Positions 35,561-43,542 of a DNA stretch of 43,624 nucleotides are shown here, piece after piece (within the stretch, counting starts at the first letter, position 1; each line of letters opens with the position of its first letter). Source of the DNA: Candidatus Firestoneibacteriota bacterium (GTDB lineage Bacteria; Oederibacteriota; D2-FULL-39-29; CAIOVX01); the NCBI GenBank assembly GCA_903894145.1, contig CAITPB010000255.1:1-43624 (forward strand), read 5' to 3'. The position numbers and the translations under genes were made by a program. The notes beneath the pieces were generated by a model. The model worked only from the letters and a program-made list of their open reading frames with translations. It ran no database searches and had not been told where the DNA came from.

Positions 35561-38341
35561 CTAGAACAGATGCCCGACACCAATATAGAATATTCCCTGC
35601 GAAGCCGTATCCGTCCTTCTGCCGAGGTCCAGCCGGAGCACCACAGGCGCGCTCATGAGAGGGAAAACGTGGACACGCAACCCGAATCCGACGCTGTTTT
35701 TTAAACTGCCCAGAGGAAAACTGCCATAGCCGTCCCAGACGGCGCCGGTGTCAGAAAACAGCCCGAGCGCGATCTTTTTCAGCAGCAGCCAATTTAACGG
35801 GGCAAAACCGTAATCAATATTATCTATCAGCGTTATCCTTGCTTCAATGTTCCAGAGGAAAATATTGTTTCCGAGCATATCATTTTTCGGATAACCTCTG
35901 AGGGTCAGAATACCTCCCAATCCATAATCTCCCCTTTCCGTGTCTGCCGAAACACCCGCAAAAAGCCTGTTGGCGAGCACAGTCTCCCTATTAACGCAAA
36001 TATAGTCCCTTCTTTCAAGGTCAAGTTCTGTGTATCTTTTCGCGCCGCCAAAAACATAGTCCCCGTGAATAAGCTGGGCGGCAAATGCGCTTCCTGCGCA
36101 GGGCTCAGTGACATTGTAAGAAATACGGTCCTCGGTCCAGGCAACCCCAACAGAGTTGACCGGCCGTTCATACTGGTCTCCGGGAACGCCGTCAAAATAA
36201 CTTCTTGTCTCAATGCCGGCGCTTATGAAGAATTCCAGCCGCCTAAATCTGTCCACCGGAAAATATAGCGGCAAAGTCAGCGCTGTATCCTCTATCCAGT
36301 AGCTCGCCGGATTTCCGTCTGAACCTGTCTCCCCGTAAAAATTACGCCAGGAAGAAAATATAAGCCCAAATCCTGGAATCCCGGAAGTATTCTGGTAGGC
36401 TGCTGTTATGCCTGTCTGCAGGCCGCTGACATCCAAGCCGTAAAGACTAATACTGTTCTCCCCGAGCAGGTCGCTCGCCTGGGTGATACCGCCGCCCATG
36501 AGCCCCGCCGAAGAGTCATAGCCCAGAAGGAAGAAGAGCACGTCCGGGGTGAGCGCGGGTTCATATTTCCGGGATATTAGATTGCCAAACTTCACTTCCG
36601 GAAGCTCTTCCGCAGGCGCCTTTGAATCCGGCGGAGCAACACTCTTTAGAAGGTTCTCTTCCGGGTATTTCATCTGATAAAGGTTGTAACAGCCCTGCTC
36701 ATAATATGAGAAAACCAGGTTCTTTGAAACAACAGAAAAATCAGGCGAGAAACACCCGCCTGAAACCGAGGTAACCTGCAAGAACGATCCCGCTTCCGGG
36801 TTAAAGATATAAAGATCAAAGATGCCGTTCATGTCGCTTGAACAGAGAAACTTCCCTCCCGGCACAACACAAGGATTTATAGTGTCAAAAGATGCCGGTG
36901 TCAGAACCTTCTCAGACTTCTTCCCTGTCAGCAGCCCGGAGAGCCTGACAAGCACCCTTTTGCCGCCCCGTCTTGACACATAAACGACGGAATCTCCGCC
37001 GTCCAGCGGGGCCGGATCTGCGTCATCGTAGCGGTCATCAGTCAGCTGCTCCAACCCGCTCCCGTCTATCCGGGATGAATAAAGGTCTGATGTTCCCCTT
37101 GCTTCCCCTGCGAAGATGATTCTGTCCCCGGAAAAGGCAGGTGAATATACCGCGTCAAGCCCGCAGTCAAAAGAGGCTATTGGGCTTCCGCCGGCAGTTG
37201 AAAATATGCGAAGCATCTGCTTGCCGGCTATTTTCCCTGCAAACGCCAGGTGCTTCCCGTCCGGCGACACGGCAAGGCCCCCACCCGCGCCCGCGATGCT
37301 GTCGAAATCATACCCAATTAGCTCATAATCACTTCTGGTCTTAAGCTCTCTGCACCTTATGCTTTGATAATTGTTCCTGTCTGAAATATAAAAAAGCTTC
37401 CCGCCGTCAGGGGAGAACACCGCGCCTGTATTATGCACCTGCATCTGCTTTGTATCAGCGGTCACGGGAGAAGCAAAATCACCGGCGCGTTTCCTTCCAA
37501 CCGCCTGAGCCCAGTACTTGTCCTTGAGCCAATACTGCCATTTGGTATTCAACTCGTCTTGGGTAACGCCTGTCGCGTTAAAAAGCGCCTGGTCGCACGT
37601 CATGGATAAAATGTAAAACTCGCGCATTATTGCGCCTATCTTATCTTCTCCGTACTTTTCTGCGATAAAGTCAAAGAAAGACTTCGATTCCTTGTACATC
37701 TCCACTACATTCCTGCCGTCTGAATAAGAAAAACCTCCGAGCATATCCACCGGATGGGTCATATTGTTGGTTACCGCGTCGCGCAGAAGCATGTCGGTGA
37801 CAGATTTGTCCTCGTCAAAGGGCTCGTGGTCCGCCATTCCTTCCATGAACCACTGAGGCAGCAGCACAGACCTTACAAGTTTGTAGGATTTGCCGAAACC
37901 GCTGTAAAGGATCTCAAACTGAAACCTGTGAGTCAGCTCGTGCTCGATGACATGGGCAAAATAATCGCGGTTCGTAAAGACCGGAAGCACCACCCTGTCT
38001 TTGAGCGGCTCCGTAAAACCGCCGACTCCTTCGGTGATAATCTCGGAAGTAATGTTCGTCTGTTCAAAATCTATCCTGTTGCGGTAAATGAACAACTTTA
38101 TTTTTTCTTCGGGAATGACTTTGAATCTTTTGGAGAGCCTTGTATAGGCGCCTTCAGCTATAAGCGCCGCTTCCCTTGCCGGAGATTCGGAACCAATGGT
38201 GTAATAGACGAGAAAATTATTTGTTTCCAGCACCTGCCATTCCAGTTTCCTGTAGACAACTTTGTTTTTTCCAAAAGAGAAAGCAATAACCGGGAGCGCG
38301 AGCAGAAAAACCGCGAGGAAGAGCAGAATATTTTTTTTCAA
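35561..38341 (-). CDS. Protease (peptidase MA-like) / TolB-type propeller / Omp85-type barrel fusion
   Basis: 926 residues from a TTG at 38341 (GGGGG four bases before), which opens with a signal peptide KKNILLFLAVFLLALPVIAF; upstream codons overlap the FmdB-like gene and were rejected. Module 1 (about 30-290) is a peptidase MA-like metalloprotease: zinc motif HELTH (134-138) and WFMEGMADHE with Glu167. Module 2 (about 310-600) is a WD40-like/PD40 propeller: FSPDGGKLFYISDRN, VSPDGKHLAFAG, SRIDGSGLEQLTDDRYDD. Module 3 (about 640-926) is an outer-membrane barrel with the Omp85 loop motif LRGY at 814-817, a GLFSDTGAVWDG strand and a C-terminal Phe. A protein displayed on, or anchored in, the outer membrane is likely; the orientation of the protease is not known. 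Confidence 0.88.
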   Translation of the reverse strand: MKKNILLFLAVFLLALPVIAFSFGKNKVVYRKLEWQVLETNNFLVYYTIGSESPAREAALIAEGAYTRLSKRFKVIPEEKIKLFIYRNRIDFEQTNITSEIITEGVGGFTEPLKDRVVLPVFTNRDYFAHVIEHELTHRFQFEILYSGFGKSYKLVRSVLLPQWFMEGMADHEPFDEDKSVTDMLLRDAVTNNMTHPVDMLGGFSYSDGRNVVEMYKESKSFFDFIAEKYGEDKIGAIMREFYILSMTCDQALFNATGVTQDELNTKWQYWLKDKYWAQAVGRKRAGDFASPVTADTKQMQVHNTGAVFSPDGGKLFYISDRNNYQSIRCRELKTRSDYELIGYDFDSIAGAGGGLAVSPDGKHLAFAGKIAGKQMLRIFSTAGGSPIASFDCGLDAVYSPAFSGDRIIFAGEARGTSDLYSSRIDGSGLEQLTDDRYDDADPAPLDGGDSVVYVSRRGGKRVLVRLSGLLTGKKSEKVLTPASFDTINPCVVPGGKFLCSSDMNGIFDLYIFNPEAGSFLQVTSVSGGCFSPDFSVVSKNLVFSYYEQGCYNLYQMKYPEENLLKSVAPPDSKAPAEELPEVKFGNLISRKYEPALTPDVLFFLLGYDSSAGLMGGGITQASDLLGENSISLYGLDVSGLQTGITAAYQNTSGIPGFGLIFSSWRNFYGETGSDGNPASYWIEDTALTLPLYFPVDRFRRLEFFISAGIETRSYFDGVPGDQYERPVNSVGVAWTEDRISYNVTEPCAGSAFAAQLIHGDYVFGGAKRYTELDLERRDYICVNRETVLANRLFAGVSADTERGDYGLGGILTLRGYPKNDMLGNNIFLWNIEARITLIDNIDYGFAPLNWLLLKKIALGLFSDTGAVWDGYGSFPLGSLKNSVGFGLRVHVFPLMSAPVVLRLDLGRRTDTASQGIFYIGVGHLF

Positions 38342-38351
38342 GCAACCCCCG

Positions 38352-38582
38352 TCAATGCCCGCATGCAGAGCAATGTTTTTTTTTGCAGGAGCCCCCGCAA
38401 TCGCAGGAGTGGCCGGAGGAACCGGAGAATACAGTTCCGGACTTGAAACCAAACACAGACATTTTTTTCTTCGCTTTGGAAGCGCCGCAGGCCGGACACC
38501 TCACCTTGGAAAGAGAATTCCCAAAGACCAGGTCCTCAAAATCAACGCCGCATTTTCCGCAATTGAATTCGAATAGCGGCAT
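38352..38582 (-). CDS. FmdB-type zinc-ribbon small protein
   Basis: 76 residues. The zinc ribbon has Cys8-x2-Cys11 (FNCGKCG) and Cys29-x2-Cys32 (RCPACG), as in FmdB/putative regulatory zinc-ribbon proteins. A second Cys/His-rich tail (SCDCGGSCKKKHCSACGH) could bind another metal. The function of FmdB proteins is not settled; some are linked to amidase regulation. The ATG begins two bases after the sppA stop codon, so it is coupled to that gene. The stop is 10 bases before the TTG of the fusion protein. Confidence 0.88.
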   Translation of the reverse strand: MPLFEFNCGKCGVDFEDLVFGNSLSKVRCPACGASKAKKKMSVFGFKSGTVFSGSSGHSCDCGGSCKKKHCSACGH

Positions 38583-38583
38583 G

Positions 38584-39567
38584 TCACTTACCGTACATGT
38601 AGCTCAAACCGTTCCCATGGAATATGCCGCGGAAACGTTCTTCGGCCGAATTATCGCCGAAGACCCTTTCCAGCAAGGACATTTCTTTCCGCGGTGTAAT
38701 AACTACCGGTTCCCCGCTGATGCCGCAGGCCTTTGCGGCCCAGTTAACGGCGTCTTCTTGGGTGCCCAGTTCGTCCACAAAACCGTACTGGAACGCCTGG
38801 CTGCCGGAGAAGATCCTGCCGTCGGCGTGCTTTTTAATCTCCGCGACTATCTGCTCCTTAGTTACGGCATCCTTGGAAACCGGAGTGCCCGTCTTTTTTA
38901 TCTTAGCCGCAAAAACCGCTCCCCTTCCTTCTGCTACGGCGTCCACGAACTGGGCGTAGACATCGTCTATCACGCCCTGCAGCAGCTGCCTTTCTTCTGT
39001 GGTCATCTTGCGCATAGAGGAACCGGTATCCTTGAACTTTCCGCTCTTTATAACTTCTTCTTTAACCCCAACCTTGTTCAGGAGTTCTTCGAGGTTCAGG
39101 TTCTCCATGATAACTCCTATGCTTCCCGTAAGCGTTCCCGGGTTTGAAAATATTCTGTCGCCGTAACAGCCTATATAATAGCCGCCTGACGCAGCCAGGG
39201 TCCCGAAAGAAACAACGACTTTTTTGTTATAGCCGTCTTTCTTTTTTACCTTCTTCAATTCCGCGACAATCTCCTGGCAGGCAGAAACCCCGCCTCCCGG
39301 AGAATCAATGCGCAGCACTATTCCCTTGATGCTCTGGTCCTTGCCGTATTTCTCGAGGATGTCAATTATCTTTGCCGAATAAAAGATAGGGCCTGATATT
39401 GTGACTAGAGCAAGTTTGTTGCCGGAGAAATTCCCGGTGAGTTTATGCGCGCTAATCGTCTGGCTGTCGCCGGCCGCGCCAATCAACGCCCTTAGAGAGA
39501 GAAAAACAACTAAAAGACAGGCAAAAACCAAAGCGGCCCTTATTATTGGTTTCCTGCTCTTTTCCAT
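38584..39567 (-). CDS. sppA: Signal peptide peptidase SppA (single-domain form)
   Basis: 327 residues, the short bacterial form. One membrane helix covers about 10-30. The serine protease core has IKGIVLRIDSPGGGVSACQE, the catalytic Ser127 in GTLAASGGYYIGC, GTLTGSIGVIMENL, and the Lys of the dyad at about 179 (SGKFKDTG). SppA digests signal peptides remaining in the membrane after LepB cleavage. The ATG has GGAGG five bases upstream. It follows the S1 gene by 19 bases and is in line with FmdB and the fusion protein. Confidence 0.95.
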   Translation of the reverse strand: MEKSRKPIIRAALVFACLLVVFLSLRALIGAAGDSQTISAHKLTGNFSGNKLALVTISGPIFYSAKIIDILEKYGKDQSIKGIVLRIDSPGGGVSACQEIVAELKKVKKKDGYNKKVVVSFGTLAASGGYYIGCYGDRIFSNPGTLTGSIGVIMENLNLEELLNKVGVKEEVIKSGKFKDTGSSMRKMTTEERQLLQGVIDDVYAQFVDAVAEGRGAVFAAKIKKTGTPVSKDAVTKEQIVAEIKKHADGRIFSGSQAFQYGFVDELGTQEDAVNWAAKACGISGEPVVITPRKEMSLLERVFGDNSAEERFRGIFHGNGLSYMYGK

Positions 39568-42939: not shown

Positions 42940-43542
42940 TTACTCTGCTTTCTTTTCTTTTTTCGCGTCCGGCTTTGCAGCCTTCTCATCTCCGCCGCCG
43001 TTGAGTTTCTCAAGATCATCCGCCCCAAGAAGCTGAACATTGCCTATGAAAAGAGGTCCTGTAAGTTTCCCGTTTATATTCCACTGTTTCAATTTCTTCT
43101 TCCAGTCTATCGCCGCGCCGTTATTGGCGCAGGCACCGGTAAGTTCAATCTCTATGGCATGCTTGCCGGGAGCAAACATAAGCGGCTGGTCAAACCTGCT
43201 CTGATAATCGCTTCCTTCAGGTTTTACAGTCAAAATAAGTCCCATCGGGGTTTTACCCGGGTTAACATACTCAAACCTTAAGAAATCAAAACCGTCCCAC
43301 ACGCCTTTTTTCGGCTGGTATTCTCCAAAGAACATATCTCCCGTAGGATAGGTTGCTGATTCGACTTTAAGGCTGACCCCGCCCTTGGTGAAAGCAGTCT
43401 CTTCGGAAAGATTTATGGTTATCGCGCCGCCCGTGTCATTCGGGAGTTCGCCTTTTTCAACATTCATTACATTCGCTTTTTTCGCAAAAGCCAAACCTGA
43501 AATCAGCAATATCGCCGCAAGAAAAACCATCATCTTTCTCAT
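42940..43542 (-). CDS. Secreted protein of unknown function with a beta-sandwich-like body
   Basis: 200 residues. A clear Sec signal peptide (MRKMMVFLAAILLISGLAFA) is followed by a strand-rich domain with features common to carbohydrate-binding jelly-roll modules: DGFDFLRFEYVNPGKTP, LILTVKPEG, FAPGKHAIEIELTG and GNVQLL. It ends in a charged Lys/Glu/Ala tail (about 25 residues). I do not recognise a named family. AGGAGG lies five bases before the ATG. It is flanked by its own promoter and terminator, so it forms a single-gene unit. It may bind a glycan or polymer at the periplasm or surface, but nothing in the sequence shows this. Confidence 0.8.
   Translation of the reverse strand: MRKMMVFLAAILLISGLAFAKKANVMNVEKGELPNDTGGAITINLSEETAFTKGGVSLKVESATYPTGDMFFGEYQPKKGVWDGFDFLRFEYVNPGKTPMGLILTVKPEGSDYQSRFDQPLMFAPGKHAIEIELTGACANNGAAIDWKKKLKQWNINGKLTGPLFIGNVQLLGADDLEKLNGGGDEKAAKPDAKKEKKAE

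Follow-up and report, generated by a model that had tools for sequence, protein, structure and literature searches.

What would a protein do that carries, in one polypeptide, a zinc protease domain, a TolB-like propeller and an Omp85-type barrel? The question is raised by a gene of a Candidatus Firestoneibacteriota bacterium, which lies in a window (the whole stretch of DNA that was analysed) of 43,624 nucleotides and has the following features:

35561..38341, minus strand: whole gene, 926 aa, TTG start, one open frame
38273..38341, minus strand: signal peptide (residues ~1-23), hydrophobic, no lipobox cysteine, recognised from sequence
37502..38263, minus strand: gluzincin (Peptidase_MA_2) zinc metallopeptidase domain (residues 27-280; Pfam, PDB profile, AF2)
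37928..37942, minus strand: zinc-binding HELTH (residues 134-138), H134, E135 and H138 invariant in 28 sequences
37835..37852, minus strand: WFMEGM with the third zinc ligand Glu167, E167 and G168 invariant in 28 sequences
36638..37435, minus strand: TolB/PD40-like beta-propeller (residues 303-568), ~24 strands, read as six blades
35564..36553, minus strand: Omp85-type 16-strand beta-barrel (residues 597-926), C-terminal Phe926 (NCBIfam, AF2, Foldseek, profile)
35891..35902, minus strand: LRGY (residues 814-817) of L6, the long loop joining strands 11 and 12; conservation of R815 and G816 is 90% or higher
35744..35758, minus strand: FxDxG motif (FSDTG; residues 862-866), barrel strand 13, F862 and D864 invariant

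The initial annotation had described a single minus-strand gene at these coordinates, encoding a signal peptide, a protease marked by HELTH and WFMEGM, a TolB-like propeller and a barrel with LRGY and a terminal Phe; the reading frame bears out the former, and Pfam, NCBIfam and AlphaFold2 (AF2) the latter. The frame runs uninterrupted for 926 codons from the TTG at 38341 to its end at 35561 and remains open upstream as far as 38452; the start was placed at 38341 on three grounds: the signal sequence, a G-rich stretch resembling a ribosome-binding site, and the TTG itself, which two relatives keep together with the run of G before it. AF2 confidence is low over the signal peptide stretch. The modules follow from N to C terminus as signal peptide, gluzincin-type zinc peptidase, TolB-like propeller and Omp85 barrel, and the Pfam scan returns Peptidase_MA_2, PD40 and Omp85 in that order. 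A viral origin of the gene was rejected (the PHROGs search was empty).

The peptidase domain matches Peptidase_MA_2 (PF13485) with an E value of 1.9e-10 over residues 62-273 (41.3 bits against a cut-off of 32.4), and the 926-aa protein is the one PF13485 protein in the host genome; no M48 match was found in this protein. Its N-terminal domain was assigned to the gluzincins because its profile matches, in the PDB, the catalytic unit of a cold-active aminopeptidase (5.4e-5) and the catalytic units of bacterial collagenases (1.6e-4 and weaker). The HExxH and the downstream Glu ligand that mark gluzincins lie within a matching fold, HELTH and WFMEGM being placed by AF2 on helices of a mixed helix-strand domain. 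The retention of HExxH and Glu in 28/28 aligned members argues for a functional enzyme.

The second module matches PD40 in Pfam (E 2.8e-9) and the TolB propeller in NCBIfam (E 1.1e-18, under the whole-family cut-off), and TolB propellers are the best PDB sequence matches of the 926-aa protein. The propeller is closest to TolB by sequence and fold, but it is fused here to a protease and a barrel. Identity as TolB itself was rejected, since the score is 67 bits where the TolB cut-off is 343; the TolB model match spans positions 197-395 only, and the TolB N-terminal domain is unmatched.

The third module gives modest scores in family searches, with an Omp85 match in Pfam at E 1.3e-4 (residues 730-891, 22 bits against a cut-off of 24) and in NCBIfam at E 1.3e-16, below the whole-family cut-off, while a profile search with the barrel finds a POTRA-domain protein (1.1e-9) and TamA (1.8e-3). 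AF2 predicts 16 strands in the full protein (residues 597-923) and again 16 long strands when the barrel is modelled alone (pLDDT 80). In Foldseek the barrel model is led by BamA (E 3.3e-14), TamA and FhaC, and the TamA barrel 4n74 aligns to it with a TM score of 0.76 by target length and an rmsd of 3.9. The sequence carries the three marks of Omp85 proteins, namely (V/I/L)RG(Y/F) in L6, FxDxG in strand 13 and a terminal aromatic residue; the LRGY falls between strands 11 and 12, where L6 lies in BamA. The C-terminal region is thus strongly predicted to be an Omp85 barrel of BamA/TamA fold, the outcome that the initial annotation had anticipated for structure prediction; a soluble C-terminal fold was rejected, since the region models as a barrel and matches BamA and TamA. 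No POTRA domain was found in the 926-aa protein by the Pfam scan. The full-length model, built from 28 sequences (mean pLDDT 78, pTM 0.73), matches BamA barrels and TolB in Foldseek; at this moderate confidence (mean pLDDT 78-80 with 27-28 sequences) the packing of the three modules against each other is unreliable.

Additionally, the same three-module order proved to be common in other genomes. The alignment comprises the window protein and 27 relatives from Firestonebacteria, Acidobacteriota, Aminicenantes and Gemmatimonadota, with identity down to 21%; besides the zinc-site residues, the barrel positions F862, D864, G885, G887 and G923 are invariant in it, and single-sequence Pfam scans of the 28 members detect PD40 in 28/28, Peptidase_MA_2 in 25/28 and Omp85 in 17/28. 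In the host phylum (Candidatus Firestonebacteria) 39/45 genomes hold matches at E <= 0.001, a few of the weaker ones touching the propeller alone. At E <= 1e-60, matches occur in 59/119 genomes of the sampled Acidobacteriota and in 79/81 of the sampled Gemmatimonadota, the labels of these two samples being inferred from their central loci. The majority of matches start at residues 3-21 and extend through much or all of the barrel, in a single open frame of ~930-1370 aa, and some homologs diverge within the barrel. Fusion by sequencing error or assembly was rejected, because full-length open frames occur in many independent assemblies; neither outcome that was to refute the initial annotation (a soluble C terminus, or genes joined by error) was therefore observed. 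No complete propeller-Omp85 protein devoid of a peptidase was present among the high-scoring matches in Acidobacteriota and Gemmatimonadota, where partial matches are mostly short or split frames. One Acidobacteriota homolog (G114:C206:1659-4335) is split into two adjacent frames, one with protease and propeller and the other with the barrel, by either a frameshift or a natural split of the gene. The protease-propeller-barrel family is confirmed as real, conserved and widespread, and its single polypeptide, three modules, conserved zinc site and Omp85 barrel fold are either shown or strongly predicted.

How much of this plan was already known? The initial annotation held that Omp85 proteins carry either POTRA domains or a patatin-like passenger, which does not agree with the ten subfamilies of Omp85/TpsB proteins defined by Heinz & Lithgow 2014 (PMC4104836), among them WD40-Omp85, 'Metallo' and noNterm, which lack POTRA. 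In that work the WD40-Omp85 proteins have a TolB-like propeller preceding the barrel, and a BamA-BamB-like fusion was suggested for them. The 926-aa protein shares this arrangement, its propeller standing directly N-terminal to the Omp85 barrel with no POTRA, but it has a peptidase domain whereas the main text of PMC4104836 names the propeller only. It is likely that the published WD40-Omp85 proteins carry the protease domain too, since the propeller-Omp85 proteins examined here have it. The 'Metallo' subfamily likewise has an enzyme domain before an Omp85 barrel and is labelled metalloprotease; however, it rests on PF00149, which is Metallophos in Pfam, a phosphoesterase family, unlike the gluzincin peptidase PF13485 of the 926-aa protein. 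The label of 2014 is apparently a slip; the wording of a metalloprotease family persists in a review of 2024 (PMC11014939). The combination of Peptidase MA with Omp85 was not found described in the searchable literature, which covers few subscription papers. The claim of a different kind of self-anchored enzyme has therefore to be narrowed: the propeller and barrel plan is already published since 2014, whereas the protease domain is an addition unmentioned in the accessible literature.

The genes around the locus were also thought to speak for envelope proteolysis. Directly upstream lie:

38352..38582, minus strand: FmdB-family zinc ribbon, 76 aa (TIGR02605, E 3.4e-13)
38584..39567, minus strand: SppA (peptidase S49; TIGR00706, E 1e-65)

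The upstream order is S1 ribosomal protein gene, SppA, FmdB-type gene and then the 926-aa gene, which starts 10 bases past the FmdB-type gene's stop; downstream, the strand continues with NadD, YqeK, a LytR-family gene, RsfS and ArgS (neighbours that no family scan covered are named from sequence). The linkage itself is real, as the SppA-FmdB-926-aa gene-NadD order is retained in order-level relatives, and SppA is directly upstream in four genomes from another family of the host phylum; on the other hand, no SppA was found next to the homologs in Acidobacteriota and Gemmatimonadota. A conserved functional operon was rejected, because the SppA/FmdB neighbourhood is confined to the host phylum and the Acidobacteriota neighbours differ. 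Being restricted to one phylum and including S1, NadD, YqeK, RsfS and ArgS, the unit says little on function. Further upstream in the window, at 42940-43542 (minus strand), a protein of 200 aa is encoded that begins with a signal-like stretch and matches nothing in Pfam; two close relatives (L031, L032) retain it upstream of the S1 gene region. In ~20 Acidobacteriota loci the gene directly upstream of the homolog (for instance L036:5279-5980, L037:4944-5921 and L039:5209-5910), often preceded by a TPR lipoprotein gene, encodes a small exported protein whose domain resembles FlgT_M and, weakly, LpoB; this product is a possible partner of the protease-propeller-barrel protein.

These data are best accounted for, at a probability of roughly 45%, by an outer-membrane-anchored zinc metalloprotease of WD40-Omp85 type, with enzyme and propeller in the periplasm, that cleaves envelope proteins. 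The N- and C-termini of a 16-strand, even-stranded Omp85 barrel are both periplasmic, which makes the periplasm the default site of the protease and the propeller. The protein would be exported via Sec, and the host's separate BamA would insert the C-terminal barrel into the outer membrane, while the gluzincin domain and the propeller would remain in the periplasm just beneath it. The propeller would most likely dock or gate substrates or partners, and the protease would cleave envelope proteins at the outer membrane, either to clear faulty ones or to process those still maturing. The periplasmic side, the catalytic activity and the quality-control role are what we infer from the domain order, the invariant zinc site, the BamA/TamA-like barrel, the genome's own BamA and the presence in three phyla.

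Precedents for a periplasmic, outer-membrane-linked enzyme also favour this metalloprotease reading. PlpD (type Vd), the best-studied fusion of an enzyme with Omp85, is a homodimer whose patatin domain has been shown to remain periplasmic (PMC11116518); as in the 926-aa protein an enzyme is fused before an Omp85 barrel, but PlpD combines a patatin lipase with one POTRA, and here a peptidase stands with a propeller. No patatin-like domain was found in the 926-aa protein by the Pfam scan, which places it outside type Vd. A link to the biogenesis of outer-membrane proteins exists for the zinc proteases BepA, YcaL and LoiP (PMC13067283); these periplasmic E. coli enzymes are tied to quality control of such proteins, but they are separate M48 proteins, unfused to any barrel. 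By analogy, the 926-aa protein would be an own-anchored counterpart of BepA, a protease working at BAM. Counting against the metalloprotease reading, the conserved neighbours point to no single pathway, the moderate confidence of the models leaves the domain packing unreliable, and the Omp85 barrel might itself have transport or assembly activity.

The latter possibility is the substance of the strongest alternative, which we consider unlikely: a factor for assembly or translocation, akin to BamA, whose propeller and peptidase take the place of POTRA domains, with the peptidase trimming or chaperoning the inserting substrate. The Omp85 proteins tested prior to PlpD all assemble or translocate proteins (PMC11116518), the RG of L6 and the FxD of strand 13 are retained as in Omp85 machines, and the BamA + BamB fusion proposed for WD40-Omp85 (main text of PMC4104836) agrees with such a factor. 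However, Pfam finds no POTRA domain, no dedicated substrate gene recurs alongside, and the host genome already encodes a full BamA with five POTRA domains, so that the 926-aa protein is an addition to it.

It is improbable, in our estimate, that the protein is instead a structural or sensory component of the envelope, a TolB-like hub beneath the barrel that binds partners with proteolysis minor or absent. Such a hub would suit the TolB-like propeller and the FlgT_M-like neighbour in Acidobacteriota, and no TolB above the family cut-off was found in the host genome (87% complete); the zinc ligands and catalytic Glu are nevertheless invariant across phyla, which would be unusual in a dead enzyme. 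Two host frames (G000:C266:2393-2794 and G000:C150:502-894) match the N-terminal part of the TolB model only, and the host Tol system may be unusual, or absent from the assembly. Surface display, in which the barrel would pass protease and propeller to the cell surface, is the least likely placement, and very improbable. The initial annotation's analogy to type Vd secretion and the anchoring in the outer membrane by the barrel speak for it, but PlpD keeps its own domain periplasmic (PMC11116518), and a folded propeller and protease that precede an Omp85 barrel with an even number of strands should lie in the periplasm.

A broader proposal, possible but doubtful, is that these proteins form a widespread and undescribed group of outer-membrane-anchored periplasmic metalloproteases, in which the barrel has ceased to be an assembly machine and, as in PlpD, serves the enzyme; in Firestonebacteria, Gemmatimonadota and many Acidobacteriota they may be a main protease for quality control at the outer membrane. 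With PlpD there is a precedent for an Omp85 barrel holding an enzyme beneath the outer membrane; a second and widespread case, with a protease, would make the general use of the Omp85 scaffold as an enzyme anchor testable. It would also provide a candidate outer-membrane protease for poorly studied diderm phyla; its presence in Gemmatimonadota and Acidobacteriota opens it to experiments in cultured organisms.
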